NCBI RefSeq assembly: GCF_017315945.1 | Contig: NZ_JAFLWI010000024.1 | Location: 1-36,033 of the forward strand | Direction of reading: 5' to 3' | Origin: Candidatus Enterococcus courvalinii | GTDB lineage: Bacteria; Bacillota; Bacilli; Lactobacillales; Enterococcaceae | DNA length: 36,033 nt | In this document: positions 8,972-36,001 of the stretch, one piece after another | Layout: each line of letters starts with the position of its first letter | Numbering within the stretch: the first letter of the stretch is position 1 | The notes under the pieces: generated by a model | Seen by the model: the letters and a program-made list of their open reading frames with translations, nothing else | Databases searched by the model: none | Told to the model about the DNA's origin: nothing | Made by a program: the position numbers and the translations under genes

Positions 8972-9739
8972 ATGGAACGAATGATTGAGGTGAAACATCT
9001 CAGTAAAATTTATGGAAATAAATTAGCGCCCGTCAAAGTACTAGACAATCTTTCTTTCACTGTGGACGAAGGAGAATTCGTAGGAATTATGGGTCCAAGT
9101 GGTGCAGGGAAAACAACTTTGATGAATATCTTATCAACAATCAGTTTGCCGACTATGGGAAGTGTCACGATTGAAGGAAAAGAAATCACTAAAATGAAGA
9201 GTAGTCAGCTTAGTGATTTTAGACGAAAGCAATTAGGTTTTATTTTTCAGGAGTTTAACCTAGTTGATACTTTAAATGCCAAAGATAATATTTTATTGCC
9301 GTTAGCAGTGGAACGGATGTCAAAAGAAGAAATGGAGCGACGTGTCTTACATGTTGCACAACTGCTCGACATTGAAGAAATCATGAAACGCTATCCAGAT
9401 GAATTATCGGTCGGACAACGTCAACGAATTGCGGCGGCGCGTGCCTTAGTTGTTCACCCAAAAGTTATTTTTGCAGATGAACCGACAGGCTCACTTGATT
9501 CAAAGTCAGCAACAGAATTATTAAATTATTTAACATTGATGAATCAAAAAGAAAAAGCAACAGTATTGATGGTAACCCATGATCCTTATACCGCAAGTTA
9601 TTGTAATCGCATTTTATTTATTAAAGATGGCGTGATTTTTTCTGAAGTTGTTCGTCGCGGCTCGCGAAGTGAATTTTTTGAAAAAGTAATTGATATGCAA
9701 GCGACAATCGGGGGAGGTGGCAAGATCAATGCTTTATAA
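8972..9739 (+). CDS. sapA: BceA-type ABC transporter ATP-binding protein (probable SapA)
   Basis: ATPase of a Bce-type antimicrobial-peptide sensing/resistance transporter, 255 residues. Walker [10 protein letters not shown] (41-49), Q-loop near FIFQEFN (90-96), signature LSVGQ (145-149), Walker B VIFADEP (about 165-171) and the H-loop MVTHD are all seen; the signature has Val in place of the usual first Gly. ATG follows AGGAGGG by 8 bases. The permease start overlaps this gene by 11 bases. The place between nrdD and dlt matches what I recall for E. faecalis SapAB (EF2752-EF2751), the transporter that senses bacitracin and signals through an SapRS two-component system encoded elsewhere. No kinase/regulator pair is adjacent, in agreement. 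The symbol rests on synteny and recall. Confidence 0.8.
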
Positions 9740-11813
9740 GTTGGCTGCCAGAAGTTTACTTAGACAGTCGCGGGGGTACTTGATTTATTTTTTTAGTTTG
9801 ACCTTTTCAGTCATGATTTACTATTCTTTTAATTCGATGACGTACGACCAATCGTTAGTTCGCCGTGCGAGTCAAGACGGATCGATTGATGGCGCGCTCG
9901 ATTTCGGAACGTTTATGATTACGTTGGTGTTACTATTTTTTGTTTTTAGTGCGAATCGTTTTTTTCTAAATCGTCGTGAAAAAGAAATTGGCATCTATCA
10001 ATTGTTTGGGGTAAGCAAATTTCAAATTTCTTCAATCTATATGATTGAGACGATGGTGATTGGTTTATTCTCTTGTGTGACAGGCATTTTGTTAGGGATT
10101 GTTTTTTCAAAACTTTTCCAAATGATTTTAGTCCGAATGATGCGAATGCAAATTGATAGTCCATTTTTTGTTTCTTGGACATCCATCGTTGATACATTGG
10201 TTGCATTTTTCTTGATTATCTTAATCGTATCGGTGCATTCTACTTGGAAAATTTGGCGTTACCCAATGATTCAAAGTTTTGGGAATACAGAACGAGTAGT
10301 TAGTAAAAAAATGCGTTTACGAACCAGACATCGTTTGCTGGGCATTATCGGATTATTTCTACTGACAAGCGGTTATTTTGGCGCAATTCATTTTCGCGAG
10401 TATTTAACGTGGTTAGTAGAAAATGATGCGCAAGTTGGCTTGATTTTTAGTTACCCATTTTTAATTTTTATATTATGTGTGATTGGTACGTATCTGTTTT
10501 TCTGCTTTTCTTTACGTTTCTTACTGAATAGTTTGAGCAAATGGAGGGTTGGTTACCGTGGGATCAATTTGTTGATGATCGGCAATACACAGATTCATTT
10601 GATGAAGGGTTGGCGAACGAGTTCCTTGATTACGTTGATCTTAGGCGTTTCTTTAGCAACTATTGGTGGTGTAACTTCTTTAGCTACCTTGGTTATTCAT
10701 ACAACGGATATTGAGAACGCAACGGATTATCAATTGGACGCTCAGACAGCTGAGTTTATTGCACCGATTCTGGCCAAAGAAAAACAAAAAATTACCCAAG
10801 AAATGGTCTTGAACTATAAAGTAGTTGGAAGTGTACATGATTTTCGTTTGGGACAAGTAGAAGACGGGCAAGAGTTTCAATTGGTGAATTTAATTACAGA
10901 AAAAGAATATCAAGACTTCCGAAAAATGAATCCTCGATTACCAAAAATCCAGTTGAAGTCGGATAAGCTCACGGTATTGTTGGATGAAGTCCAGTCTTTA
11001 GTGAGAAATTTCTCGATTTACGGGAAAAGAATCTACCTACCAAATCAAACGGCTTTGAAAATCCAATCGATTCATCCGGACATGCTAGGTGAAAGCATGA
11101 TGCGTTATAGTGGTCCAACGTTAATTGTCAGTGAAAAAATTTATGAAGCAACACAAGGAGCAGCGTATCAAGTTGTTCATTGGAATGTAACTGGCGGAAA
11201 TAATGAAGCAATCAATGAGATTTTGGATCGGAAAGTTGAAATTAATTGGAATCATTCTGTTGAGTATCAATATGAGATTGATCAGCAAAAATTGTCTGGA
11301 GAAATCGTTGCAAAAACGACAGAAGATGATGAGGGATTTGAAGATAGTTCCACGGAAGATTTTGCTGATACGAGTAAAGAATCAGGGCAGTCTGTACGCT
11401 TGAATTTTACAGCAAGGTATCCACAGATGCGTTCGGTTTATCGTCAAACGGGCAGTTACACGTTTGTTTCGTTATTTGTTGGGATGATTGTTGTCATTAC
11501 GACTGGTAGTATCTTAATGGTTCGTCAGTTAGCAGAAGCCGAGGAAGAAAAAGGTAATTATCATTTACTTACGAAACTAGGTATTCCACAAAAAAGAGTA
11601 AGTTTGATGATTTATGGTCAAAATGCGATTACTTTTTTCCCGTCAATGATCTTAGGTATTTTACATGCTGTTTTTGCAATCAATGTCTTCACTCAATACA
11701 TTAAGACAGCTGACTACTGGCTGGCTTACCTCGTTTGTGGACTACTAGTAGTCGTCTATGTGTTGCTTTATGTGATTACTTGTCGTTGGTACTATCGAAT
11801 TATCAAAGAATAA
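9729..11813 (+). CDS. sapB: BceB-type ABC transporter permease (probable SapB)
   Basis: FtsX-like permease of 694 residues. Four hydrophobic segments lie within the first 190 residues, more at about 210-320, and three after 565, in keeping with the ten-helix BceB layout. The large extracellular domain typical of this family lies at about 335-565 and contains a very acidic stretch ([18 protein letters not shown]). I start at ATG 9729, 8 bases after GGAGGTGG; the frame extends 13 codons upstream without reason. BceB-type permeases form a sensory complex with a histidine kinase, so this protein probably detects peptide antibiotics or their lipid targets at the membrane. It lies directly before the dlt operon, which also protects against cationic peptides. 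Confidence 0.82.
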
Positions 11814-11829
11814 AATAAAACGAAACCCA

Positions 11830-11873
11830 CAACACTTTTATCGATGGATGGTCGGTAGGAGTGTTGTTTTTTT
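11830..11873 (+). terminator. Terminator after the BceAB-type operon
   Basis: CAACACTTTTATCGA (11830-11844) pairs over 15 bp, with G-T wobbles, with TCGGTAGGAGTGTTG (11852-11866), loop TGGATGG, then seven T. It separates this operon from dlt. Confidence 0.88.
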
Positions 11874-12131
11874 GCGACTGAACAGGACAAGGGAGAGGCG
11901 GAAAGATTGCACGAAGAATTACTAAAAATAGTTTGGAAAAAAGTTTAAATTTTTTTGAAGTAATTAGAAAAAATTCTGTCAATTTCTAGTTATTTTTTTG
12001 TTCAGAATCCTTATTCCTTAACCTTGTGACAAAAGTGTTAGCCTGAAATCGCTTATCGTAAGCTGGATAGATGTTCCCTTAGACGAAAAATCGTTAAAAT
12101 TTCTGTAGAAGTTTGATATGGAGGTGTTTTG
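11874..12131 (+). other. Intergenic leader region of the dlt operon
   Basis: About 258 bases, AT-rich, no gene. Small hairpins are seen (GCTTA-TCG-TAAGC at 12051-12063; ACGA-AAAA-TCGT at 12083-12094) and a TTGTGACAAAAG stretch near 12024 like the arms of other terminators here but without its partner. The dlt promoter must lie here, but I see no convincing -35/-10 pair. GGAGGTG before 12132 is the dltX ribosome site. Confidence 0.5.
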
Positions 12132-12281
12132 ATGAAGAAGTGGTGGGCACAACCTCAAGTTAATTATTGGGGGAAATTTTTCATTCGCACCCTTTTTTAT
12201 AGTTTGATATTCCTTGCATTGATTTATTTGTATCACTATAAAAATATCCAAGGAGGATCCTTTATCTACAATGAGTTTTAG
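12132..12281 (+). CDS. dltX: DltX, small membrane protein of the dlt operon
   Basis: A 49-residue protein recognised by its place before dltA, one membrane helix (about 17-36) and the conserved C-terminal motif FIYNEF. In Gram-positive bacteria DltX is needed for D-alanylation of teichoic acids; its C-terminal motif carries D-alanine across the membrane between DltC/DltB and DltD. The start ATG at 12132 follows GGAGGTG. The dltA ribosome site AGGAGGGA overlaps the end of this gene, so the two are likely translated together. It is easily missed because of its size. Confidence 0.95.
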   Translation: MKKWWAQPQVNYWGKFFIRTLFYSLIFLALIYLYHYKNIQGGSFIYNEF

Positions 12282-12291
12282 GAGGGACATC

Positions 12292-13806
12292 ATGAAATTT
12301 AGCACAATCATTGAAGCAATCGATCGCTGGGGCATAACTGAGCCTGAACGCGTGGTTTACCGCACGGCAAATGAAGAGTACACATATGGAAAATTGAAAG
12401 CAGCATCTGATGCTTTTGCACATTATTTGGAAGTCAATGTAGAGGATACGAAACCAATCGTCGTATTTGGTAATTTAGAATTTGAAATGCTGGTTGCTTT
12501 TTTAGGAGCTGTCAAAGCAGGACATGCTTATTTGCCAATTGAAGAGCAAACACCCCAAGAGCGAGTCGAAGCTATTTTAACGGTGGCGCAACCAACTTTG
12601 GTTGTAAGCTTAGGTGAGTGGCCAGAAGCGTTGAACCAACAGCCCGTTTTAACAAAAAAAGAATTTGTTTCTATCGTTGGAGAAAAAGTTTCATTTCATC
12701 CTAGTCATCCAGTAGAAATGACGGAAAACTTTTATATTATTTTTACTTCGGGAACAACGGGACAGCCAAAAGGTGTTCAAATCAGTCACGATAATTTAAA
12801 AAGTTTTGTGGAATGGACATTAACTGATTTTACTATCCAGCCTGGGATGCGTTTTTTAGCGCAAGCACCCTTTTCATTTGATTTATCAGTCTTCTCCATT
12901 TACCCAGCATTGGTTTCTGGCGGAATACTTGTTCCATTGGCAAAAGCAATCATTCAAGATTTTAAGCAATTATTTCAGACTTTACCAAAGTTAAAATTGG
13001 AAACATGGGTTTCGACACCGTCCTTTATGGATATTTGTTTGATGGAACCACAATTTGATGAACAGCATGTTCCTGAGTTACAGCAATTTATTTTTTGTGG
13101 AGAAGAGCTGACGAAAAAAACGGCCCAAGAGTTATTGAAACGATTCCCAAGTGCAGCAATTTACAACACTTATGGTCCAACTGAAGCTACAGTTGCGATT
13201 TCCAGTGTTCAAGTTACGCAAACGGTATTAGATGCGTATGAACGGATTCCAATTGGGAAAGTGAAATCAGATACAAAAGTTACGATTTTTGCAGAAGATC
13301 AGCCTTGTGCAGTTGGTGAAACAGGTGAAATCATTATTTCAGGGCCGAGCGTTTCAAAAGGTTATTTGAATAATCCAGAAAAAACGGAAGCAGCATTCTT
13401 TGAATATGAAAATCAGGCAAGCTACCGAACAGGTGATGCAGGAAGTCTGACTGCAGATGGCATGCTTTTGTATGAAGGTCGTTTGGATTTTCAAGTTAAG
13501 TTACATGGTTATCGAATTGAACTTGGCGACATCGAACATTATTTAGGGATGAATCCAAATGTTAAACAAGCAGTAGTTGTACCTAAATATCAAGGAGTCA
13601 AGGTTCAGCAATTGGTAGCGTTCATCGTTTTAGAGAAAGAAATCGAGCCATCGTTTCAGTTAACGAAAGCAATCAAACAAGCGTTAGGCCAATCGGTGAT
13701 GGAGTACATGATTCCACAAAGAATCAACTATCTTGAACAATTGCCCCAGACACCAAACGATAAAATCGATCGTAAGAAATTACTTGCTGAGGTGAATCCA
13801 ACATGA
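12292..13806 (+). CDS. dltA: D-alanine--D-alanyl carrier protein ligase
   Basis: Activates D-alanine with ATP and loads it on the phosphopantetheine arm of DltC in the cytoplasm. The 504-residue protein shows adenylation-domain motifs in order: FTSGTTGQPKG (P-loop), AQAPFSFDLSVF, YGPTEAT, YRTGDAG, GRLDFQVKLHGYRIELGDIE and the C-terminal catalytic lysine in NDKIDRKKL. ATG 12292 is 4 bases after AGGAGGGA; an in-frame ATG at 12271 lies inside dltX and before this ribosome site, so I reject it. The stop overlaps the dltB start (ATGA), a sign of coupled translation. Confidence 0.97.
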   Translation: MKFSTIIEAIDRWGITEPERVVYRTANEEYTYGKLKAASDAFAHYLEVNVEDTKPIVVFGNLEFEMLVAFLGAVKAGHAYLPIEEQTPQERVEAILTVAQPTLVVSLGEWPEALNQQPVLTKKEFVSIVGEKVSFHPSHPVEMTENFYIIFTSGTTGQPKGVQISHDNLKSFVEWTLTDFTIQPGMRFLAQAPFSFDLSVFSIYPALVSGGILVPLAKAIIQDFKQLFQTLPKLKLETWVSTPSFMDICLMEPQFDEQHVPELQQFIFCGEELTKKTAQELLKRFPSAAIYNTYGPTEATVAISSVQVTQTVLDAYERIPIGKVKSDTKVTIFAEDQPCAVGETGEIIISGPSVSKGYLNNPEKTEAAFFEYENQASYRTGDAGSLTADGMLLYEGRLDFQVKLHGYRIELGDIEHYLGMNPNVKQAVVVPKYQGVKVQQLVAFIVLEKEIEPSFQLTKAIKQALGQSVMEYMIPQRINYLEQLPQTPNDKIDRKKLLAEVNPT

Positions 13807-15008
13807 CGATCCCTCATATGATTCCTTATGCGCAACCACTCTACTTTTTGCTATTGCTGGTGGCATTAGCACCAATCATTTTTTCTTTGCTCGTGCGGAA
13901 CAAGCGACTACCGATTTATCAGGCAATTGTCACTTTCTTTTTCTTATTCATTAGTTTTGGTGGGGCAGATTGGCGACAAGGAGTGGCTTTGTTTGGCTAT
14001 GTTGTCTGGCAAGTCATTTTAGTGTGGCTTTATTTCAACTATCGACAGCAAAAGAATGCAACGGGTTGGTTTTACTTAGCAGTATTTTTGGCAATTGCAC
14101 CTTTGACGATTACTAAAATCATGCCATTACTGACAGATAAACCAATTTCATTCATCGGATTTTTAGGGATCTCATATCTGACTTTTAAATCTGTTCAGAT
14201 GATCATGGAGATTCGCGATGGCATGATCAAAGAATATCATCCGCTACGTTATATTCAATTTTTACTTTTTTTTCCAACCATTTCCTCAGGACCAATCGAT
14301 CGCTATCGTCGGTTTGAAAAGGAAGAATTGCAAGCGCCAAATGCTGAGAAGTATGTTGAGCTGTTGGGGAAAGGTGTCCAAAATATTTTTGTTGGTTTTC
14401 TTTACAAATTTATTATTGGGTATTACCTAGGGCAAATCCTAGAACCAGCGTTGAAACATATGGTGATCCATAATGGCGGGATTTCGTGGGCATTACTTGG
14501 TTATATGTATGTCTATAGTTTGTACCTGTTCTTTGATTTTGCTGGCTACAGTTTGTTTGCGATTGGTACGAGTTATCTTATGGGATATGAAACACCAATC
14601 AACTTTAACAAACCATTTTTATCTTGGAACATCAAAGAGTTTTGGAATCGTTGGCACATGACGTTATCTTTTTGGTTTAGAGATTATATTTATATGCGTC
14701 TGATGTTTTTCTTGATGAAGAATAAAGTTTTTAAAAGCAAAATCGTCGCCTCTAATGTCGGATACTTTGTGTTATTTCTAATCATGGGTGTCTGGCATGG
14801 GTTAACTTGGTTTTACATTGTTTATGGGATTTATCATGCAACTTTGATTTGCCTGACCGATGCGTGGATTCGTTTCAAACGCAAGCACAAAGGTCAGTTA
14901 CCTGCAAATAAGTTAACACACGCATTTGCAGTTTTCTTAACATTTCAGGCAATCTGTTTTGGTTTATTGATTTTTTCAGGAATTTTAAATACCTTACTTT
15001 TTGCTTGA
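13803..15008 (+). CDS. dltB: D-alanyl transfer protein DltB (MBOAT family)
   Basis: Membrane-bound O-acyltransferase that moves D-alanine from DltC on the inside towards the outer face for teichoic acids. The 401 residues are mostly hydrophobic, with about ten or more membrane segments. MBOAT landmarks are FNKPFLSWNIKEFWNRWHMT, SFWFRDYIY and MGVWHGLTWFY, in which the His is the catalytic residue (about 336). The start overlaps dltA by 4 bases. The gap to dltC is 50 bases without a terminator. Length and motifs are normal. Confidence 0.96.
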   Translation: MTIPHMIPYAQPLYFLLLLVALAPIIFSLLVRNKRLPIYQAIVTFFFLFISFGGADWRQGVALFGYVVWQVILVWLYFNYRQQKNATGWFYLAVFLAIAPLTITKIMPLLTDKPISFIGFLGISYLTFKSVQMIMEIRDGMIKEYHPLRYIQFLLFFPTISSGPIDRYRRFEKEELQAPNAEKYVELLGKGVQNIFVGFLYKFIIGYYLGQILEPALKHMVIHNGGISWALLGYMYVYSLYLFFDFAGYSLFAIGTSYLMGYETPINFNKPFLSWNIKEFWNRWHMTLSFWFRDYIYMRLMFFLMKNKVFKSKIVASNVGYFVLFLIMGVWHGLTWFYIVYGIYHATLICLTDAWIRFKRKHKGQLPANKLTHAFAVFLTFQAICFGLLIFSGILNTLLFA

Positions 15009-15058
15009 TTTTTGATTCAAAAAAAGAAAATGACATTTATTAAAAGGAGAGAATAGAC

Positions 15059-15292
15059 ATGGGAGAACAAATTTTAACAATTTTAACAGACATTACGGGA
15101 ACAGATGAGGTTCGAAACAACCGCGATATGAATTTATTTGATGAAGGATTACTTGACTCACTTGCAACTGTTCAATTATTAGTAGAATTAGATGGCGAGT
15201 TAGGAATTCAAGTACCTGTTTCTGAATTTGAACGTGAAGAGTGGGCGACTCCAAATAAAATTATTGCACAAGCAGAAAACTTAAAGGGTTAA
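15059..15292 (+). CDS. dltC: D-alanyl carrier protein
   Basis: Acyl-carrier protein of 77 residues that holds D-alanine as a thioester. The phosphopantetheine attachment site is the Ser of [10 protein letters not shown] (Ser34). Helical, acidic and of normal length. ATG 15059 follows AAAGGAGAG. The stop TAA touches the dltD start region (TAATGATG), so translation is coupled. Confidence 0.97.
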
Positions 15293-15294
15293 TG

Positions 15295-16554
15295 ATGAAA
15301 AAGAAACTTTTTGCCATATTTGGACCAGTTGTTTTGGCAATCGGATTATTAGTTTTCTTATTTATTTCGCCCTATCGTGTGAATGTACATGATCCAAAAG
15401 TTATTCATGAAGCAGCTAGTTCAATGTCTGGCAATTTGCTGAAGGGGGACGCTATCAAAAACGAAGCGTTAGCCGAAGAAAAATATGTACCCTTTTTTGG
15501 TTCAAGTGAATTAAGTCGAATCAGTCCATTTCATCCTAGTGTTTTAGCAAAAAAATATCATCGTGATTACGAGCCTTTTTTATTAGGCGCTCCAGGTACC
15601 CAATCATTTAGTCAATTTATGTTGATGCAATCTGCCGGGAGTCATTTGAAAGAGAAGAAAGCAGTTTTTATTATCTCCCCTCAATGGTTTGTTAAGAAGG
15701 GTGTAAGTAAAGAGTACTTCAATATGTATTATTCAGAGTTACAAACATATGATTGGCTTTTTGGATTGAAAAAAGTAACCTCGGCTGATCGCTATGTTGC
15801 TCGTCGATTGCTGAGCTTTCCTAAAGTAACGGAAAATCAAACGCTGACTGAGCTACTCCAAGAAATCAAAGCAGGTCGGTTACCAACTGAGAAAAGTCGT
15901 AAGAAACTTTATCCAGCATGGCAGTTATTGAAAAGAGAAGATGAGTTATTTAGTCAAATTGGCCTAGTAGGAAAACAAAAACGAATTGATCAGGCAACTG
16001 GACAATTACCAGAAGTTTATCAAGATGCACAATTGAAAAAACTAGCAAATAAAATTGGGGAAAAATCGACGAACAATAATCCATATGGACTAAAAAATGA
16101 ATTTTATACACATCGTGTACGTCCAGAAATTGAAAAATTAAAGCAGTCACAGACAAACTGGGATTATCGTTGTTCGCCAGAGTTTTCTGATTTTCAGTTA
16201 GTTTTGGAACAATTTGCTAAACAAAAAATGCAAGTGCTGTTTATCATTCCACCAGTGAATGAAAAATGGAGTGATTACACTGGCTTGTCTCAAGAAATGT
16301 TGCAACAATTTGCAAAAAAAGTGAAATTCCAATTAACCAGTCAAGGTTTTGGACAAGTTGTTGATCTAACAAAGCAAGCAAATACCCCCTATTTTATGGA
16401 AGATACGATTCATTTAGGTTGGCAAGGTTGGCTAGCTGCCGATCAAAAAATTGCACCGTTTTTAGCAGAAAAGCAAGCACCAGTTCATTACAAGTTGGAT
16501 AATGCTTTTTATAGTAAAGAATGGCAACAAAAAGAACCAGATAAGCTAGACTAA
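15295..16554 (+). CDS. dltD: DltD, D-alanyl transfer protein
   Basis: Extracellular, membrane-anchored SGNH-like enzyme that completes D-alanine transfer to lipoteichoic acid. An N-terminal helix (about 5-25) anchors it. The catalytic Ser is in FFGSSELSR (about 65) and the Asp/His pair in MEDTIHLGWQGW near the C-terminus. I take the second of two adjacent ATGs (15295), 6-7 bases after AAAGGG; the first is at 15292. The 419 residues are normal. No terminator follows directly: the next lies about 420 bases on, beyond a repeat array, so the operon mRNA may carry a long 3' region. Confidence 0.95.
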   Translation: MKKKLFAIFGPVVLAIGLLVFLFISPYRVNVHDPKVIHEAASSMSGNLLKGDAIKNEALAEEKYVPFFGSSELSRISPFHPSVLAKKYHRDYEPFLLGAPGTQSFSQFMLMQSAGSHLKEKKAVFIISPQWFVKKGVSKEYFNMYYSELQTYDWLFGLKKVTSADRYVARRLLSFPKVTENQTLTELLQEIKAGRLPTEKSRKKLYPAWQLLKREDELFSQIGLVGKQKRIDQATGQLPEVYQDAQLKKLANKIGEKSTNNNPYGLKNEFYTHRVRPEIEKLKQSQTNWDYRCSPEFSDFQLVLEQFAKQKMQVLFIIPPVNEKWSDYTGLSQEMLQQFAKKVKFQLTSQGFGQVVDLTKQANTPYFMEDTIHLGWQGWLAADQKIAPFLAEKQAPVHYKLDNAFYSKEWQQKEPDKLD

Positions 16555-20815: not shown

Positions 20816-20835
20816 AAAGTGACCAATTGATAAGA

Positions 20836-20870
20836 AAAAAGCTTCCGGAAACATTTTCCGGAAGCTTTTT
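20836..20870. terminator. Bidirectional terminator between lplA and the GHKL gene
   Basis: AAAAAGCTTCCGGAAA (20836-20851) pairs perfectly over 16 bp with TTTCCGGAAGCTTTTT (20855-20870), loop CAT. A/T tracts on both sides serve both convergent genes. Confidence 0.92.
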
Positions 20871-20879
20871 TAGTATTTT

Positions 20880-22712
20880 TTAAATACGAGAAAGTTGAAT
20901 CGTCACTCGATCAAAAATTTCATCTTTTTCTTGAGTCAATTTACCAGAATACTTATCAGTGACAAGTTTTATCATCATTAAATCAAAGCGTTCTTGACTT
21001 TCTAATTCAGTTGTTATTCCACGATCAAAAATATTTGTATCGTAATGTGCGTTGTGTTCACAATGAATAATTAAATCATCATCATTGACACGCATCGAAA
21101 GGAAAATCTTTCGTTGTAATGGATTTTCGATTGCGTGCGATTCTCTGAAAGAATGCTCCAAGATATGAATCAGTAACTGGGTCAAATCGTCATCGTGAAC
21201 AAATAGCTCTCCAGGAAGCTCGGCATTAAAGTGGATCTCAATACTTTGTTTGCTTGCGATTTCTTGGTAACGTGCCAAAATCAAATTTGTCAATGAATGA
21301 CCAGATAAAGAAGTCATGATCTCAAACTTTTGTGCTTCATCAAGCAGTTCATTCAGATAGTTTTCTGCTTGTTCTGGCTGATTGGTTTGTAGCATTGCTT
21401 GAATTGTTGTCATTCGATCTAAAAAGTCTAAACGAAGGGTACTGATTTCTTTCATATGTGTGCGTAAAGATTCATAGTGTGCTTCAAGAAGATCTGTTTT
21501 GGTTTTCAAAAAATTCGCTTCTCGAATATTTTGATCTACGGCACGAATATGTTCTGAAATATTGTCAATCACAATTACTAATAAAATAATCATGTAAAGA
21601 ATTGTTGACCAGTTGAGTGTGCTGACATAATTTCCCAAGGTACTTTGAATAAATAAGTAACAGTGACTAATCGCAATCAGAATGATCCAAGGCGTACAGG
21701 AAACGAAGAAGCGATTTCCATGATATGCTTCACCAATACAGGCAAGTGAGGTCACCAATGTGCTGAAAACTCGAATGATACTGATCAATTGCATCATCTC
21801 AGGAAGCTCTTCTGGTGTGAAGAGAGCATATAAAATTGGCAAGAAAGAAAAGAAAACCTGAAGAAGGCACCAAATGCCAAACAGTCGTCGATAACGTTCC
21901 ATGCGCAACGTATAATAGGAAATCAGGAGTAATGCACTTAAAACGGTAAAAAGATGCGAAAGAGTAGAGTGAACGATTGGATCAAATAATAACCCACTCA
22001 AAATATCTTCAGACATTGCGCTAAAGCCAACAATTAATGCAAAGCAACTTAAAAAGATCAAAGAAAGATCCAGTCGCTGCTGCTTGTACATGATATAAAT
22101 CGTCATAATCAATGTTCCAACGGCTAATAAAATTGCAATAATCATAGTCAAAAATTGTGGGACTGATTTGGAGAAAATAAACGTGACCATTGAAGAGGCT
22201 GTACCAATATAAACCTTTGGTGGGATTCCTGCAAAATTTACGTAAGGAGAGGTAACTTCAATGGATAATTTCTTTCCAGCATAATTATCGGGCAAATCAA
22301 TGACCGCTAATGATAAACCAGGATTTTTGATAGTTGTGTCGCCCGTTCGTTCATAAAGAACTTGTTGATCTAATTGAACTTTGATCCATTGATGATTTCC
22401 TTTTAACAAAATATTCGCTTGGTCGAGTTTTTTTGTTAAGGTAGTCTCCATCACGAACGTTTCATTTTTAGAGACTTGTGGGACTTTTTCCAAATAATCA
22501 CTATTGTAGCGAGTCTCAGGGTCATCTTTTGAATAAAAATCCCAAGCTTGTTGGATTTCTTTTGTTTCATCACCATCTGCTGGTGAAAGGATAAAATAGA
22601 AGAAATAGCTAATGCCAAATAAAAATAACAAGGATAATATTATTATGGAAAGCCATTTCATTTTTGTTGAAAAAAAATCTTTTTTATTATATGTGTTATT
22701 TAAAGGAATCAT
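20880..22712 (-). CDS. Seven-helix membrane protein with degenerate GHKL histidine-kinase domain
   Basis: Start ATG 22712 (AAAGGA 9 bases upstream), 610 residues. A membrane helix lies at about 20-42, then an extracytoplasmic beta-rich domain (about 50-180), then about seven helices (190-385), like 7TMR-DISM receptors. A helical linker and a NatK/AgrC-type kinase region follow. The phospho-acceptor motif, normally LRHDFxNHLxTI, here reads LRLDFLDRMTTI: His is replaced by Leu428. The N-box reads LLIHILEHSF instead of NLLDNA. No G-rich nucleotide-binding motif remains (SQERFDLMMIK where GxGL is expected). It is probably a receptor or scaffold without kinase activity, not a broken gene, since the frame is intact. 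No response regulator is adjacent. Confidence 0.75.
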   Translation of the reverse strand: MIPLNNTYNKKDFFSTKMKWLSIIILSLLFLFGISYFFYFILSPADGDETKEIQQAWDFYSKDDPETRYNSDYLEKVPQVSKNETFVMETTLTKKLDQANILLKGNHQWIKVQLDQQVLYERTGDTTIKNPGLSLAVIDLPDNYAGKKLSIEVTSPYVNFAGIPPKVYIGTASSMVTFIFSKSVPQFLTMIIAILLAVGTLIMTIYIMYKQQRLDLSLIFLSCFALIVGFSAMSEDILSGLLFDPIVHSTLSHLFTVLSALLLISYYTLRMERYRRLFGIWCLLQVFFSFLPILYALFTPEELPEMMQLISIIRVFSTLVTSLACIGEAYHGNRFFVSCTPWIILIAISHCYLFIQSTLGNYVSTLNWSTILYMIILLVIVIDNISEHIRAVDQNIREANFLKTKTDLLEAHYESLRTHMKEISTLRLDFLDRMTTIQAMLQTNQPEQAENYLNELLDEAQKFEIMTSLSGHSLTNLILARYQEIASKQSIEIHFNAELPGELFVHDDDLTQLLIHILEHSFRESHAIENPLQRKIFLSMRVNDDDLIIHCEHNAHYDTNIFDRGITTELESQERFDLMMIKLVTDKYSGKLTQEKDEIFDRVTIQLSRI

Positions 22713-22925
22713 ATGTAGCAGTCCTTTCTGATTGGAGTACATTTAGGTTAAACTTTTTTTTATTTGTAGTCAATGCCTTTATAACACTTAAATAGACATT
22801 TAATTAAGAATATAAGGAGAATTTCAAGTTTTAAATATCATTTTTCTAATAAAAAAGAAAAATAGATGAAATTTTGTGTTATTATATTGTTGCTTAAGTA
22901 AATTAGAAAAATGGGGTGGAAAACG

Positions 22926-23438
22926 GTGCCTTTTAACAAAAAAATAACTCTTGTTGGCTCAATCATATTGATTTTATTCTTAGCCATTATCTTGTGCGTT
23001 GTTTTGTTGCCACATTTACTTGGTTTGACGCCACAAATCATTGATGATAAAGATATGGCTCCGTTGTATTCAAATGGAAGCGTCGTCTATGTGCGACCAC
23101 AAAATGCGGAAGATATTTTAGTCGGTGATGTGATCACTTATTATGAAAATTCTGGTGAGCGAGTGAAGACTCGGCGTGTGATTGCGGTAGGTGATAACCA
23201 AGAATATTTTTATACAAAAGCAGATACACAAACACAAGTCGAATCAGGCAGGATAAAGCCACGAAGTGTGATTGGAAAACCAGTTTTTCAAATTCCTTAT
23301 ATAGGTGCATTATTGTCTAAAGACAGTTTCTCAAAAATGAATTTTTTATTTTGGAGTGTGGCAATTTGTCTAACTGCTGCTACGACATGGAACACGATAG
23401 ATGAATTTCGGAAAAAGAAAAATTGTAGAATCATTTGA
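22926..23438 (+). CDS. SipW-like signal peptidase I homologue, apparently inactive
   Basis: About 170 residues with helices near 9-32 and 138-157 around a signal-peptidase S26 core: DMAPLYSNGSVVYV, GDVITYYE, TRRVIAVGD, YTKADTQ and VIGKPVFQIPYIG follow SipW/archaeal enzymes in order. The catalytic Ser of S-M-x-P is Asp (D43-MAP) and the catalytic His of THRV is Arg (R83), so peptidase activity is unlikely. The start is uncertain: GTG 22926 has GGGGTGG upstream, ATG 22911 has no ribosome site. It diverges from the GHKL pseudokinase gene and has its own terminator. It may bind signal peptides or another protein; inference only. Confidence 0.75.
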   Translation: MPFNKKITLVGSIILILFLAIILCVVLLPHLLGLTPQIIDDKDMAPLYSNGSVVYVRPQNAEDILVGDVITYYENSGERVKTRRVIAVGDNQEYFYTKADTQTQVESGRIKPRSVIGKPVFQIPYIGALLSKDSFSKMNFLFWSVAICLTAATTWNTIDEFRKKKNCRII

Positions 23439-31363: not shown

Positions 31364-32872
31364 TTAGAACCAACGTGAAAAGAAAAGTTCTTCCGAGTAA
31401 TCAGAAATTTTACCTGTGAAATCTACTGCACGAACTTTGATTTTCCATTGACCAGGACCGTTGATTTGATAATCACAATAAGAAGTGTCAGTCGTAGTCG
31501 TTATTAATCGATCATCTCGATAATATTCATAGTGACGAATACCAGAGTCATCTGTCGAAGCATCCCAACTGAGTATCGTACCAAAGTGTTCATATTTTTG
31601 TACCTTAAGGTTTCTTGGTGTGGTTGGATTATTCCAATCTGGTGCCGCATACTGAATATATATACCAGAAAATTGCTCACTTGAATTAGCATTGCTGAAA
31701 GACCAAGAAAGGTTATTTGTTCCAGCTTCTAGCCAGGAAACATTTGTCCCATCATAAGTTCCTGGTTGATTAAACGTGACGTTTGGTCTTTCACCGTGAA
31801 TTGTCCGGAGTTTTAAAGGTGTTTTATGGTTGGTCCAAGTATTTGATCCAGAAACAGTTTGATTGAAAGCGACAACTTTTTGAAGACTAGGAATATCTTC
31901 TAACACTTCTAAGCTAGTCAACTCATTTCCTGAAAGAGTCAGATGTTTCAAATTTGGCAATTCAACGAGTGGACTAATATCATTAAGTTCATTACTTGAT
32001 AGACCGAGCTGTTGGAGATTTTTAAATTCAGCAATTTTTCTTAGATTTTCAATTTGTGGGAAATTATTACCAGGTAAACTAAGTCGATTTTCACTTAGTT
32101 CTAAAGCGACTAAATTAGGAAAGTCAAGTTGAGTGTCGACACGTTGGATTTTATTTTCAGCGCCATAAATTCCTTGAAGTTTTGTATGTTTTTTTAAAGG
32201 TGCGAGGTCGATTATGTTGTTAAAGTTAAAATTAATCATACGTAAATCATTTATGTAATAGAGATCAACCAATGATGAGAGTTGGTTGTTATCGACCCAA
32301 AGTTGCTTGATGGTTGGAAACTTGCTTACACCATCGAGAGAAGTCAACTGATTATTGCTTAATGCCAACTGCTCTAGTGCTGGCAAATGATTCATAGTAT
32401 CAATGGATGAGATCCCGTTGTTAGTCGCACCAATGATTCTTAATTTTGTGAGATTTTGAATGGGGGTTAAATCTGTCACTAAGTTATTGTTCAAGCGAAA
32501 GTCTGTTAGGTTCAGTGCGAATTCAATTCCGGTAATATCTTTGATGCTCAATCCGGAAATATCTAAGGTAACTAGGCTTTCCATATGTTGCGATGTGATT
32601 GGTTCGTCTGTGGTCAAATGAAATATTTCTTTTAGTTTGCTTTCAAAAGCTGGATCATTGATCGTGATTGTTTGAGTGGATTTTGCTGCTAGCTGGGAAT
32701 CAATTTGATTTTCTTTTAAAGGAGCGAGTGTGTCAGTGAAATAGTTACTTACTTTGATTGTTTGTTCTTGCTGTGGCACATTTTCATTCGCGTAACTGAT
32801 TGGTGAAAAAGTTCCAAGTGCGGTACTAAATAATACAAGTGAAGCGACTGTAAAGAATAGTTTTCTTTTCAT
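31364..32872 (-). CDS. Secreted leucine-rich-repeat (internalin-like) protein
   Basis: 502 residues. A signal peptide (1-29, MKRK then a hydrophobic core, ending SYA) exports it. A cap (about 65-110, TITINDPAFESKLKEIF) leads to about ten internalin-type leucine-rich repeats (about 100-330, e.g. LPALEQLALSNNQLTSLDGV). An Ig-like inter-repeat region (about 340-400) and a fibronectin type III domain (about 415-498, PRNLKVQKYEHFGTILSWDAS) follow. It ends FFSRWF without LPXTG, so it is released or loosely bound. Such proteins often bind host or wall ligands. ATG follows GGAGG by 9 bases. It stands alone as a single gene. Confidence 0.88.
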   Translation of the reverse strand: MKRKLFFTVASLVLFSTALGTFSPISYANENVPQQEQTIKVSNYFTDTLAPLKENQIDSQLAAKSTQTITINDPAFESKLKEIFHLTTDEPITSQHMESLVTLDISGLSIKDITGIEFALNLTDFRLNNNLVTDLTPIQNLTKLRIIGATNNGISSIDTMNHLPALEQLALSNNQLTSLDGVSKFPTIKQLWVDNNQLSSLVDLYYINDLRMINFNFNNIIDLAPLKKHTKLQGIYGAENKIQRVDTQLDFPNLVALELSENRLSLPGNNFPQIENLRKIAEFKNLQQLGLSSNELNDISPLVELPNLKHLTLSGNELTSLEVLEDIPSLQKVVAFNQTVSGSNTWTNHKTPLKLRTIHGERPNVTFNQPGTYDGTNVSWLEAGTNNLSWSFSNANSSEQFSGIYIQYAAPDWNNPTTPRNLKVQKYEHFGTILSWDASTDDSGIRHYEYYRDDRLITTTTDTSYCDYQINGPGQWKIKVRAVDFTGKISDYSEELFFSRWF

Positions 32873-33060
32873 TTTCTAAACCTCCAAAAGTTTTTGTTGT
32901 GTTACAAGTTAATCTTAATAAAAAACGTTAAAAAATAAAAATGATAGCTTTAGTTATTTTTAAAATAAGTTTTCTAAATGAAAAAAAAACAATAGTTTGT
33001 AGAAGTAAATGCTTGTTTAACAAATGTTTCGTTTATTTTGAAAAAGCATGAGGTAAATAG

Positions 33061-33089
33061 TTGACGAATCCTCTAGAAATCCATAGTAT
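33061..33089 (+). promoter_or_regulatory. Promoter of the LevR-type gene
   Basis: TTGACG (33061-33066), 17 bases, TAGTAT (33084-33089), about 100 bases before the chosen start. A second TATAAT at 33128-33133 lacks a -35. Confidence 0.6.
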
Positions 33090-33187
33090 TATGTTTTGTA
33101 GTTAGCTATTTTTAGTTATGTTTGTTCTATAATAGTAAGAAAAATAGTGTAGCAGGAAATTTGGAAACACAGGAAGGGGCGTATCAA

Positions 33188-36001
33188 TTGACAAAGCGTA
33201 TTGACCGAATTTATCTCTATGTCAAAGAAAAAACCGCTCATTTAACAAAAGCAGAAGCCGATCAAGGAGTAACCACTCAAGAAATCGCTGAAATATTAGG
33301 AATTCAACGAACAAATAGTAGTAAAGATTTAAACCAGTTAGTTCGTGAAGGAAAATTAGTCAAGTCCGATGGCAGACCAGTCCGTTACATATATCAAAAG
33401 GCAGACGTATATCAAAAACCTGTAAGCAAGCACGTGGTTAGTTACAAAGAGGATGTTCTACCAGTTGAGGAACCAATCGTTCATATTGATACAAAAGATA
33501 TTTTTTCCAAAATTATTGGTGAAAATGGCAGTATGAAAAATGCTGTTGAACAGGCAAAAGCTGCCATCTTATATCCGCCTAGAGGGTTAAATTGTTTGAT
33601 TACAGGGCCAACTGGCTCAGGGAAAACTTATTTTGCACATGCAATGTTTCATTTCGCCAAAGCAAATCATGTGATTGATGAAGAAAAAGAATTGATTGTG
33701 TTTAATTGTGCCGATTATGCAAATAATCCAGAATTATTGATGAGTCATCTTTTTGGTTATACAAAAGGAGCATTTACGGGTGCGGCTGAAGAAAAAATGG
33801 GGATTATCGACCAAGCAGACGGTGGGATGCTCTTTCTAGATGAAATTCATCGTTTACCGCCGGAAGGACAAGAAATGATCTTTTATTTTATGGATCACGG
33901 AACTTATAGCCGACTAGGTGAGACAACAAAATCACATGAAGCAAATGTCCGCATCGTTGGTGCAACGACAGAAGACCCAGGTTCTTCCTTATTGGAAACG
34001 TTTGTGAGACGGATTCCAATCAACATCCAACTACCGTCTTTCGAAAAGCGACCTGCTAATGAAAAAGTCGATTTGGTAAAGATTATGATTGCTCATGAAG
34101 CGAATCGAATCCAACGAAAAATTTCTCTGACAGAAGATGTTGCTAAAGCCTTGATTGGTAGCGTTACTTATGGGAATATTGGACAATTGAAATCAAACAT
34201 TCAATTGATTTGCGCACGTGGATTCCTAAACCATATGAACTCACCTGAAATTTCGATTACTGTTAGTGATTTGACAGAAGGGATTCGAAGCGGGCTAATT
34301 CAATTAGCTAGCAACCGCGTAGCAATGGCAGAGCTATCAAAAATTTTAGAACCAAAATTAACCATCGTACCAAACGATGACATGATGAAAATCCAATCAG
34401 ACTCGTATGAATTGCCTTATAACTTATACGATATTATTGGGGACAAAGCGGCTTTGTTGAAATCTGATGGCTTAGATCAAGAAGCAATCAACCATTTTAT
34501 TTCGACAGATATCAATATTCATTTGAAATCTTTTTATAAAGATCATGGATTTTCTTTCAATGCTGATAATAAATTGGCTGAATTTGTTGATCCTAAAGTC
34601 ATTGAAGTGACACATCAAATTTATAGTATGGTTAAGAACTCTTTGCCTTATGAATTTCAACAGAATTTTATTTATGCGATGAGTTTGCATATCAGTTCAT
34701 TTTTGAAAAAAATCAATTTAGGGGAAGAACGACACACGAATGATAACATTCGAGAAATGACGTTTGATTTTCCAGAAGAGTATGCAGTTGCAAAAGAAGT
34801 CCGTAAATACATTGAAGAATACTTTCAAGTTCGTATTCCAGAAAGTGAAGATTATTATTTGACAGTCTTGCTAGTGTCTTTACGAGCAAATCAAGCAACT
34901 GGCCGCATCGGCGTTGTGGTCGCAGCTCACGGAAACAGTACAGCTAGTAGTATGGTTCAAGTAGTAAAACAACTTTTAGATGTTGAAAATGTTCGAGCAG
35001 TTGATATGCCGTTGGACATGGATCCTAAAACGGCTCTTAGCCGAATTGAACGAAAGGTTCAAGAGGTTGATGAAGGAAGCGGTGTTATCCTGTTAGTTGA
35101 TATGGGCTCATTGGCTTCGTTCAATACGCAAATTCAGCGAGAGACAGGAATTCCGATTCGAACAGTAGATATGGTGACAACATCATTAGTTTTAGAAACT
35201 GTTCGAAAAGTTTCTGTTTTAGGAACAGATCTAGACACGCTTTATGACTCCTTAAAAAACTTTCGTGGGTACGCGGCTGTTTCTCCTGTGACAGCTAGTG
35301 AGAAGCCAGTTCAAGAGCGAAAAGCAATTTTAGCTATTTGTGCTTCAGGAGAAGGTACGGCAAAAAGAATCAAGGAATTGATTGAGCGTGCGGTAAGTAA
35401 ACGACAAGAAGCAGAACTGACGGTTTTAGCTTTATCCATCGTTGAATTAGAAAAAGAACTACCGCGTATTCAAGCAGATTATCAAGTGATTGCTACTACA
35501 GGAATCACTGATCCTAAAATTGCGGCACCGTTTATTCCGCTTGAGCGCTTTATTGATCAAAATATTGAATTGATTTTAGACCAATTGTTACTTGAAGCAG
35601 ATTTAGAAGAAGCACCAGAGGTTTCTTTAACTGAAGAAACGGCGAAAGAAACATGTGTGGAATTCATATCAGATAACTTTACTTTTATTAATGGAAGAAA
35701 ACTGATTGATCCTATTTGGGATTTTGCTGAAGATGTGACAGAAAGTATTGGATTAGCTAACAAAGAATATGGCTTTAAAATCAATTTGGTTATGCACACA
35801 GCAGGGATGATTGAACGAATCGTATTAAATGAACCGTTGACTGCCGAAAAAACAGAGTTGGATCAAATGGTTCAAGATCCGTTTTATACAATGCTTCAAA
35901 GTTTAATTGCTCCGTTAGAGAAAAGAGTGAACTTAAAGGTTCCTTTAGTTGAAAGCTATTATATTTTACGTTTGATCCATAATCAGTTGGCAAAAATTTG
36001 A
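33188..36001 (+). CDS. Sigma-54-dependent PTS operon regulator (LevR/MptR-type)
   Basis: 937-residue activator of a mannose-class PTS operon. Domains in order: winged helix (about 5-60), AAA+ sigma-54 interaction domain with Walker A GPTGSGKT (130-137), GAFTGA (184-189, contacts sigma-54) and Walker B FLDE (about 206-209), PRD1 (about 430-560, His491 in SLHISSF), EIIA-Man-like domain (His571 in AAHGNST), EIIB-like domain (Cys708 in AICASGEGT) and PRD2 (His860 in VMHTAG). PTS phosphorylation of the His/Cys sites sets activity. I start at TTG 33188, 8 bases after AGGAAGGGG; the frame upstream to 33122 crosses a TATAAT. The controlled operon and its -12/-24 promoter probably lie beyond the window. 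Confidence 0.93.
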   Translation: MTKRIDRIYLYVKEKTAHLTKAEADQGVTTQEIAEILGIQRTNSSKDLNQLVREGKLVKSDGRPVRYIYQKADVYQKPVSKHVVSYKEDVLPVEEPIVHIDTKDIFSKIIGENGSMKNAVEQAKAAILYPPRGLNCLITGPTGSGKTYFAHAMFHFAKANHVIDEEKELIVFNCADYANNPELLMSHLFGYTKGAFTGAAEEKMGIIDQADGGMLFLDEIHRLPPEGQEMIFYFMDHGTYSRLGETTKSHEANVRIVGATTEDPGSSLLETFVRRIPINIQLPSFEKRPANEKVDLVKIMIAHEANRIQRKISLTEDVAKALIGSVTYGNIGQLKSNIQLICARGFLNHMNSPEISITVSDLTEGIRSGLIQLASNRVAMAELSKILEPKLTIVPNDDMMKIQSDSYELPYNLYDIIGDKAALLKSDGLDQEAINHFISTDINIHLKSFYKDHGFSFNADNKLAEFVDPKVIEVTHQIYSMVKNSLPYEFQQNFIYAMSLHISSFLKKINLGEERHTNDNIREMTFDFPEEYAVAKEVRKYIEEYFQVRIPESEDYYLTVLLVSLRANQATGRIGVVVAAHGNSTASSMVQVVKQLLDVENVRAVDMPLDMDPKTALSRIERKVQEVDEGSGVILLVDMGSLASFNTQIQRETGIPIRTVDMVTTSLVLETVRKVSVLGTDLDTLYDSLKNFRGYAAVSPVTASEKPVQERKAILAICASGEGTAKRIKELIERAVSKRQEAELTVLALSIVELEKELPRIQADYQVIATTGITDPKIAAPFIPLERFIDQNIELILDQLLLEADLEEAPEVSLTEETAKETCVEFISDNFTFINGRKLIDPIWDFAEDVTESIGLANKEYGFKINLVMHTAGMIERIVLNEPLTAEKTELDQMVQDPFYTMLQSLIAPLEKRVNLKVPLVESYYILRLIHNQLAKI

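Follow-up and report, generated by a model that had tools for sequence, protein, structure and literature searches.

A stretch of 36,033 nucleotides, positions 1 to 36,033 of contig NZ_JAFLWI010000024.1 of Candidatus Enterococcus courvalinii and called the window here, carries a gene for a 610-residue membrane receptor with a histidine kinase-like transmitter half. The locus is a conserved divergent pair of predicted pseudoenzymes, so called because the dead receptor divergently adjoins a signal peptidase homologue that has lost its catalytic residues. That the receptor is catalytically dead but still functional is well supported by alignments and substitution rates. A sequence-only reading of the same DNA had proposed an envelope receptor with a dead kinase half, which motif loss and purifying selection support well; it missed the main clue, namely that the neighbouring peptidase is also without catalytic residues. 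The features of the pair are listed below.

20880..22712, minus strand: receptor pseudo-kinase coding sequence, 610 amino acids; intact open reading frame, start position conserved in the family
22179..22583, minus strand: predicted extracytoplasmic beta-rich domain, residues 44-178; low-confidence secondary structure and hydropathy
21543..22178, minus strand: about seven membrane segments, residues 179-390; hydropathy
21309..21542, minus strand: linker helix and degenerate DHp, residues 391-468; alignments and sub-threshold SPOB_a
21402..21449, minus strand: H-box equivalent EISTLRLDFLDRMTTI, residues 422-437; alignments
21429-21431, minus strand: Leu428, at the phospho-acceptor place
20883..21308, minus strand: degenerate GHKL (CA) domain, residues 469-610; profiles, alignment and Foldseek
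21141..21167, minus strand: N-box equivalent, His516 to Glu524; His516, Glu519 and His520 replace Asn, Asp and Asn
21054..21062, minus strand: Cys551-Glu-His553; His553 at the canonical Asn of that strand
22911..23438, plus strand: pseudo-signal peptidase of Sec11/SipW type, 175 amino acids; Asp48 at the Ser place and Arg88 at the His place

Loss of kinase motifs in the transmitter half

The transmitter half was compared with canonical kinases of the same genome at the H-box, N-box and G-box. The H-box aligns without gaps to the kinase L002 (VRLIKHDLKNSLTTT / ISTLRLDFLDRMTTI), as does the N-box (GNLLDNSINAC in L002, IHILEHSFRES in the receptor). In this register Leu428 stands in place of the phospho-acceptor His and His520 in place of the N-box Asn, and alignments with the own-genome kinases place ERFDL where canonical kinases have the glycine box GxGL. 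All three losses had been noted in the sequence-only reading and were confirmed.

The domain remains recognizable as a CA fold. The family profile A1 matched L002 (also C29) with an expectation value (E) of 1.9e-16; it gave stronger partial matches as well, to 7.8e-24, which were not checked individually. Conversely, an HATPase profile made from 7 kinases outside the receptor family matched the window protein at E 9.7e-5. All nine Foldseek matches at E <= 0.001 were DesK, with template modelling scores of 0.26-0.28. Of the Pfam families that the earlier reading named for a check, two matched the window protein below threshold: SPOB_a scored 23.7 bits (threshold 28.1) and HATPase_c_5 scored 15 bits (threshold 22). 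HATPase_c_5 reached E <= 0.01 in 7 of 36 family members, and 7TMR-DISM was not matched. Structure prediction with AlphaFold, in one run of 4 sequences and one of 5, reached mean predicted local distance difference test scores of 47 and 55, too weak for the geometry of the His cluster.

In an alignment of 29 orthologues (13 from genus g1, 10 from g4, 5 from g5 and 1 from g9), the phospho-acceptor His was absent from 28, and its replacements were varied: Leu 9, Gln 7, Asn 3, Phe 2, Thr 2, Lys 2, Asp 2 and Gly 1. Conservation of Leu at this place, raised earlier as a check, was thus not found. The lone acceptor His belongs to L018, which lies deep inside the genus clade (L051 in the tree) and keeps the N-box His; therefore, its acceptor His is no mark of an intact kinase. 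The N-box Asn place is held by His in 23 orthologues (23/23 of the g1 and g4 rows), by Tyr in the 5 from g5 and by Asn in the one from g9. All three canonical Asn (516, 520 and 553) are His, and Cys551 is invariant, in the same 23 rows. Position 553 could shift by one in the alignment with the intact relative L140 described below, and the gapless alignments with L002 and L011 were preferred.

Receptor half

The receptor half is made of one N-terminal hydrophobic segment, an ectodomain of about 135 residues and about seven further hydrophobic segments, as judged from family hydropathy and a low-confidence model. On the same evidence, the complete receptor half described earlier (an extracytoplasmic domain plus about seven helices) stands, and the 7TMR-DISM trait of an ectodomain followed by seven membrane helices is present. 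The Pfam profile 7TMR-DISM_7TM itself gave no match to the window protein at E up to 1, nor to any of 36 members at E <= 0.01; the distant relatives L141 and L143 do exceed its cut-off. Searches of solved structures with the window protein or the receptor half as query found nothing useful.

An intact relative and the ancestry of the receptor

A receptor-half search of 398 phylum-wide genomes gave 8 matches at E <= 0.001, own genome included. The best other match, L140 (G772, from another class), is a full-length homologue, with E 7e-52 for the receptor half. Its ectodomain, seven helices, DHp and GHKL stand in identical order; it differs from the dead receptor in that the H-box (LKHEIKNH), N-box (NMLDNALEA) and G-box (GHGYGL) are present, with 72.4 bits for HATPase_c_5, and in that a divergent LytTR response regulator takes the place held by the pseudo-peptidase in Enterococcaceae. 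On this comparison, L140 fixes the register and the ancestry of the dead receptor family. The six weaker matches carry HATPase outputs (L141 and L143) or GGDEF (L142, L144, L145 and L146). When more intact relatives were sought in the family of G772 at E <= 1e-20, 1 of 45 genomes matched, G772 itself.

L140 also bears on His419, nine residues before the acceptor place, which came up when a conserved His elsewhere in the DHp helix was looked for as a sign against acceptor loss. His419 is conserved in 21 of the 29 orthologues. It was rejected as an alternative acceptor and is judged structural because the intact L140 carries both this His and a real H-box His.

Among Enterococcaceae, L072 has a recognizable GHKL domain (44.2 bits against the HATPase_c_5 cut-off of 22) with Gln at the acceptor place, and L085 has Asn at the acceptor place and Pro at the N-box place. 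In genus g3 (8 copies looked at, 17 genomes matched), the DHp is shorter by about 35-47 residues and the CA domain is very divergent. This suggests that the acceptor His was lost first in the history of the family, because it is absent even where the ATP site is still recognizable. In a receptor-half tree, g1, g3, g4 and g5 each fell on one side of a branch, with support for g4 of 91/93 only; the pattern is consistent with vertical descent. L085 and L140 were on long branches and their placement is unsure.

The divergent pseudo-signal peptidase

A signal peptidase homologue lies divergently adjacent to the receptor in 40 of 41 loci (40 fetched neighbourhoods and the window); the contig of the remaining locus, L071, stops about 170 bases past the receptor start. 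The window peptidase passes TIGR02228 (54.2 against 51.85), which all 37 aligned copies match at E <= 0.001, and it does not reach the Bacillus SipW equivalog cut-off (42.4 of 190). In SipW and Sec11, Ser and His are the catalytic residues. Of 40 copies, 39 have lost both: at the position preceding Met, the nucleophile Ser has given way to Asp, Gly, Glu, Ala, Lys, Asn, Gln or Thr, and the THR motif carries Arg instead of its His, as with Asp48 and Arg88 in the window. Ten relatives outside the pair, from nine loci and picked among the lower-scoring matches, all keep Ser and His. The passing of TIGR02228 means that a profile-based annotation as "signal peptidase I" would mislead.

The only copy of the pair that keeps Ser (DDSMEP) and His (THTV) is L085:8269-8775 of G065, and peptidase activity may persist in this genus. 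One loss can occur without the other, because L085 has lost the receptor's kinase motifs and kept the Ser and His of the peptidase.

The two genes also occur together. Among 395 genomes of the order, at E below 1e-50, 30 had both genes, none had the receptor alone, 1 (G035) had a truncated peptidase alone and 364 had neither. Two of the 30 have broken receptors (G004 and G011), and the pair-holding G065 is not among the matches listed for this sample. Peptidase and receptor are both under purifying selection and are inherited together. In G035, a genome without receptor, a truncated pseudo-peptidase was seen (L128:6913-7311), and loss of the pair is probable there.

Spread, integrity and selection

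Receptor-type relatives were found in 50 of 105 Enterococcaceae genomes, with the matches sorted by us. Among 15 genomes of the genus, the receptor frame is fully open in 12, shortened near the C-terminus in G009 and broken in G004 and G011. In the latter two (L058 and L059), the receptor is interrupted by stops and the pseudo-peptidase frame is open.

The ratio of nonsynonymous to synonymous substitution rates (dN/dS) of the transmitter half, taken over the last 225 residues (165 in g3), was 0.037-0.151 in 9 of 11 close pairs and gave no value in 2; some pairs were saturated at silent sites, with dS near or above 1, and the ratios of these pairs are rough. The values indicate that the transmitter half is under purifying selection and, with the spread of relatives given above, that the receptor is not a damaged copy. 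Conservation by segment was measured on 17 g1 and g4 rows, 6 near-copies of the 23 being left out. The segment of the former ATP pocket, residues 505-540, ranked top of ten segments, with 63% mean pairwise identity and 12 of 36 positions invariant. The ectodomain and seven-helix region showed 48%, and the two DHp helices 34% and 27%, with 0 of 56 positions invariant. The intact AgrC-type kinases of the own genome, L002 and L004, were each found in 1 of 105 family genomes (thresholds 1e-40 and 1e-60); by this distribution they look accessory, in contrast to the widespread dead receptor.

Proposed function and alternative explanations

On balance, we favour the explanation that receptor and pseudo-peptidase together sense at the membrane as one unit, by binding and not by catalysis. 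We infer a single unit from what the sequences hold: the ectodomain and seven-helix module are kept, the transmitter motifs are gone, and the partner fits its profile without Ser and His. The pseudo-peptidase, with a peptide groove predicted outside the membrane, would bind a secreted peptide or envelope component as a co-receptor. From the receptor, the change would travel along the helices into the transmitter-like domain. All that this domain would still do is dock: in the likeliest case to an intact sensor kinase, as in RocA-CovS, otherwise to a response regulator, as in DivL-DivK. The former ATP pocket probably serves as the site of contact or of ligand binding, because the conserved surface is that of the GHKL part and not of the DHp. 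Regulators usually dock on the DHp, and since this is the least conserved part, RocA-like action on an intact kinase is placed first.

The known systems resemble this arrangement in part. RocA of Streptococcus pyogenes is a pseudokinase that acts on CovS, and its predicted acceptor His is dispensable (PMC7028121). Like the enterococcal receptor, it is described there as a membrane receptor with DHp and CA domains, missing kinase residues and no catalysis of its own. It differs in its sensory part, residues 1-219 with six membrane segments, and the portion of that paper available to us mentions no peptidase partner; the likeness is one of description and not of sequence comparison. An overexpressed RocA form without the CA domain is reported to complement (PMC7028121), so the parallel is incomplete, because CA is dispensable in that form of RocA and conserved here. 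DivL, a Caulobacter pseudo-histidine kinase, likewise has its acceptor His replaced and its transmitter repurposed for binding, as described in PMC4211667, but with Tyr at the acceptor place, PAS sensors, DivK~P as the bound partner and another sensor architecture. Signalling by protein contact, perhaps by titration of another kinase, as the earlier reading had put it, would fit the RocA-CovS and DivL-DivK precedents as these sources describe them. On the peptidase side, SipA of S. pyogenes shows that a dead signal peptidase can retain its peptide groove and serve in a non-enzymatic way (PMC4049620). According to the same source, SipA shares the signal-peptidase fold, a replaced nucleophile (Asp48) and the loss of a second catalytic residue, and it remains essential to its process. 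It has lost the Ser and Lys of the bacterial type, whereas the enterococcal partner has lost the Ser and His of the Sec11/SipW type, and SipA belongs with a pilus locus, the enterococcal pseudo-peptidase with a receptor.

Several observations weigh against a binding-based sensing unit. The conservation by segment stands without the matching profile of an intact kinase as control. The peptidase of G065 keeps Ser and His though the kinase motifs of its receptor are lost. In G004 and G011 the receptor is broken and the peptidase frame open; therefore, the peptidase can be retained at least briefly without the receptor. Genus g3 has a shortened DHp and a very divergent CA, and the reported complementation by a RocA form without CA leaves the RocA parallel incomplete. 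Finally, no output gene is constantly linked to the pair, because two-component systems lie within four genes in just 3 of 41 loci (L079, L081 and L085) and belong to different families; self-made receiver and HATPase profiles found none in the fetched stretch of the other 38.

This lack of a constantly linked response regulator also agrees with an alternative in which the pair is an assembly or secretion factor, the pseudo-peptidase acting as chaperone of a surface protein and the receptor as a mere anchor. Pilus polymerization requires SipA, which has a signal-peptidase fold with Asp and Gly where the catalytic residues would be (PMC4049620). In L081, the third gene from the receptor encodes a 1690-residue fn3 protein whose start resembles a signal peptide, and L085 has an ordinary signal peptidase I two genes off the pair on its pseudo-peptidase side. 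However, each of these two neighbours is confined to one locus, no sortase or pilin was recognized beside the pair among the minority of neighbours that were annotated, and a mere anchor is not expected to retain a transmitter-like domain under selection. We regard such a role as unlikely, though deserving of weight. Similarly doubtful is a transmitter with a remaining enzyme or binding activity of another chemical kind, such as a metal or small ligand bound where ATP once was. The change of three pocket Asn to His (516, 520 and 553) together with Cys551 in all 23 g1 and g4 rows would suit it. Yet in g5 just His516 and Cys551 are left, the weak structure models do not allow pocket geometry to be judged, and Cys551 is not itself new because the intact kinase L140 has Cys there. 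A combined scheme is speculative and rather improbable: the dead peptidase would capture signal or secreted peptides uncut and inform the dead kinase, whose three-His and Cys pocket, holding a metal or ligand, would set its contact with a regulator, giving a sensor of secretion or envelope state with no phosphotransfer of its own.

The dead transmitter might instead sequester or read a response regulator directly, as DivL does, and not act on a kinase. The dead kinase core of DivL is described as binding DivK~P (PMC4211667), and the intact relative L140 is paired with a LytTR regulator, but the usual regulator-docking surface, the DHp, is the least conserved part (0/56 invariant) and is shortened in g3, which leaves direct action on a regulator quite unlikely. 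A decaying kinase heading for loss would account for the lost motifs and for the 2 of 15 genus genomes with a broken receptor and the third with a shortened one. It would not account for purifying selection, for new residues that are invariant in 23/23 g1 and g4 rows or for the retention of the receptor over deep divergence. A decaying pseudogene was rejected on the low dN/dS of the transmitter, and ongoing decay is highly improbable.

A description of this pair was not found in the open-licence literature, searched by title and the start of the abstract, among the matches listed. Both pseudo-histidine kinases and pseudo-signal peptidases are known, each on its own; in the present locus they are joined as a divergent pair, which is kept in about half of the sampled Enterococcaceae genomes (receptor in 50 of 105). 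With L140 showing the kinase as it was before motif loss, the pair offers a direct and testable case of a two-component receptor rebuilt, as we propose, into a contact sensor.

Reading frame and flanking sequence

The intact frame of 610 residues claimed in the earlier reading holds as a minus-strand open reading frame starting at ATG 22712. This start is favoured, as the Shine-Dalgarno-like AGAAAGGA precedes it and homologous starts align at the same place. An upstream alternative, ATG 22742, would give 620 codons and has no evident ribosome site. The protein is 97% identical to a protein of Enterococcus sp. DIV0660C and 93% identical to one of E. thailandicus. The flanking features are as follows.

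22713..22910: divergent intergenic region between the receptor and peptidase genes; alignment of 12 genus loci
22768-22773, minus strand: conserved TTGACT before the receptor gene; alignment of 12 genus loci
22878-22888: AT-rich GTTATTATATT block, strongly conserved, before the peptidase gene; 12 aligned genus loci
20835..20871: terminator-like hairpin between lplA and the receptor gene

Neighbouring genes

LplA is the commonest other neighbour, within three genes in 34 of 41 loci. Of the seven loci without a nearby LplA, L051 and L054 are cut by the contig end, LplA is displaced in L083, and none is found in the fetched stretch of L067, L069, L081 and L085. The pseudo-peptidase is adjacent to the receptor even in these last four and in L083.

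In L081 (8869-10946, G020), an intact-looking HisKA/HATPase kinase adjoins the pseudo-peptidase and is followed by an OmpR-type regulator; this is a candidate partner system in G020, not linked elsewhere. The WalK/WalR-like system of L085 lies three and four genes away, as does the system of L079. In L085 (9661-13035, G065), the ordinary signal peptidase I (Peptidase_S26, 135 bits) and the WalK/WalR-like system are both near the pair.

Upstream in the window, at 8972-16554, an FtsX-type-permease ABC transporter is followed by dlt-operon-like genes (AMP-binding, MBOAT and DltD). Linkage of the pair to the dlt-like genes or to the FtsX-type transporter was given no weight, as this is a regional order common to part of the loci. 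At 31364-36001, a leucine-rich-repeat protein is encoded next to a sigma-54 activator with PRD and EIIA domains.
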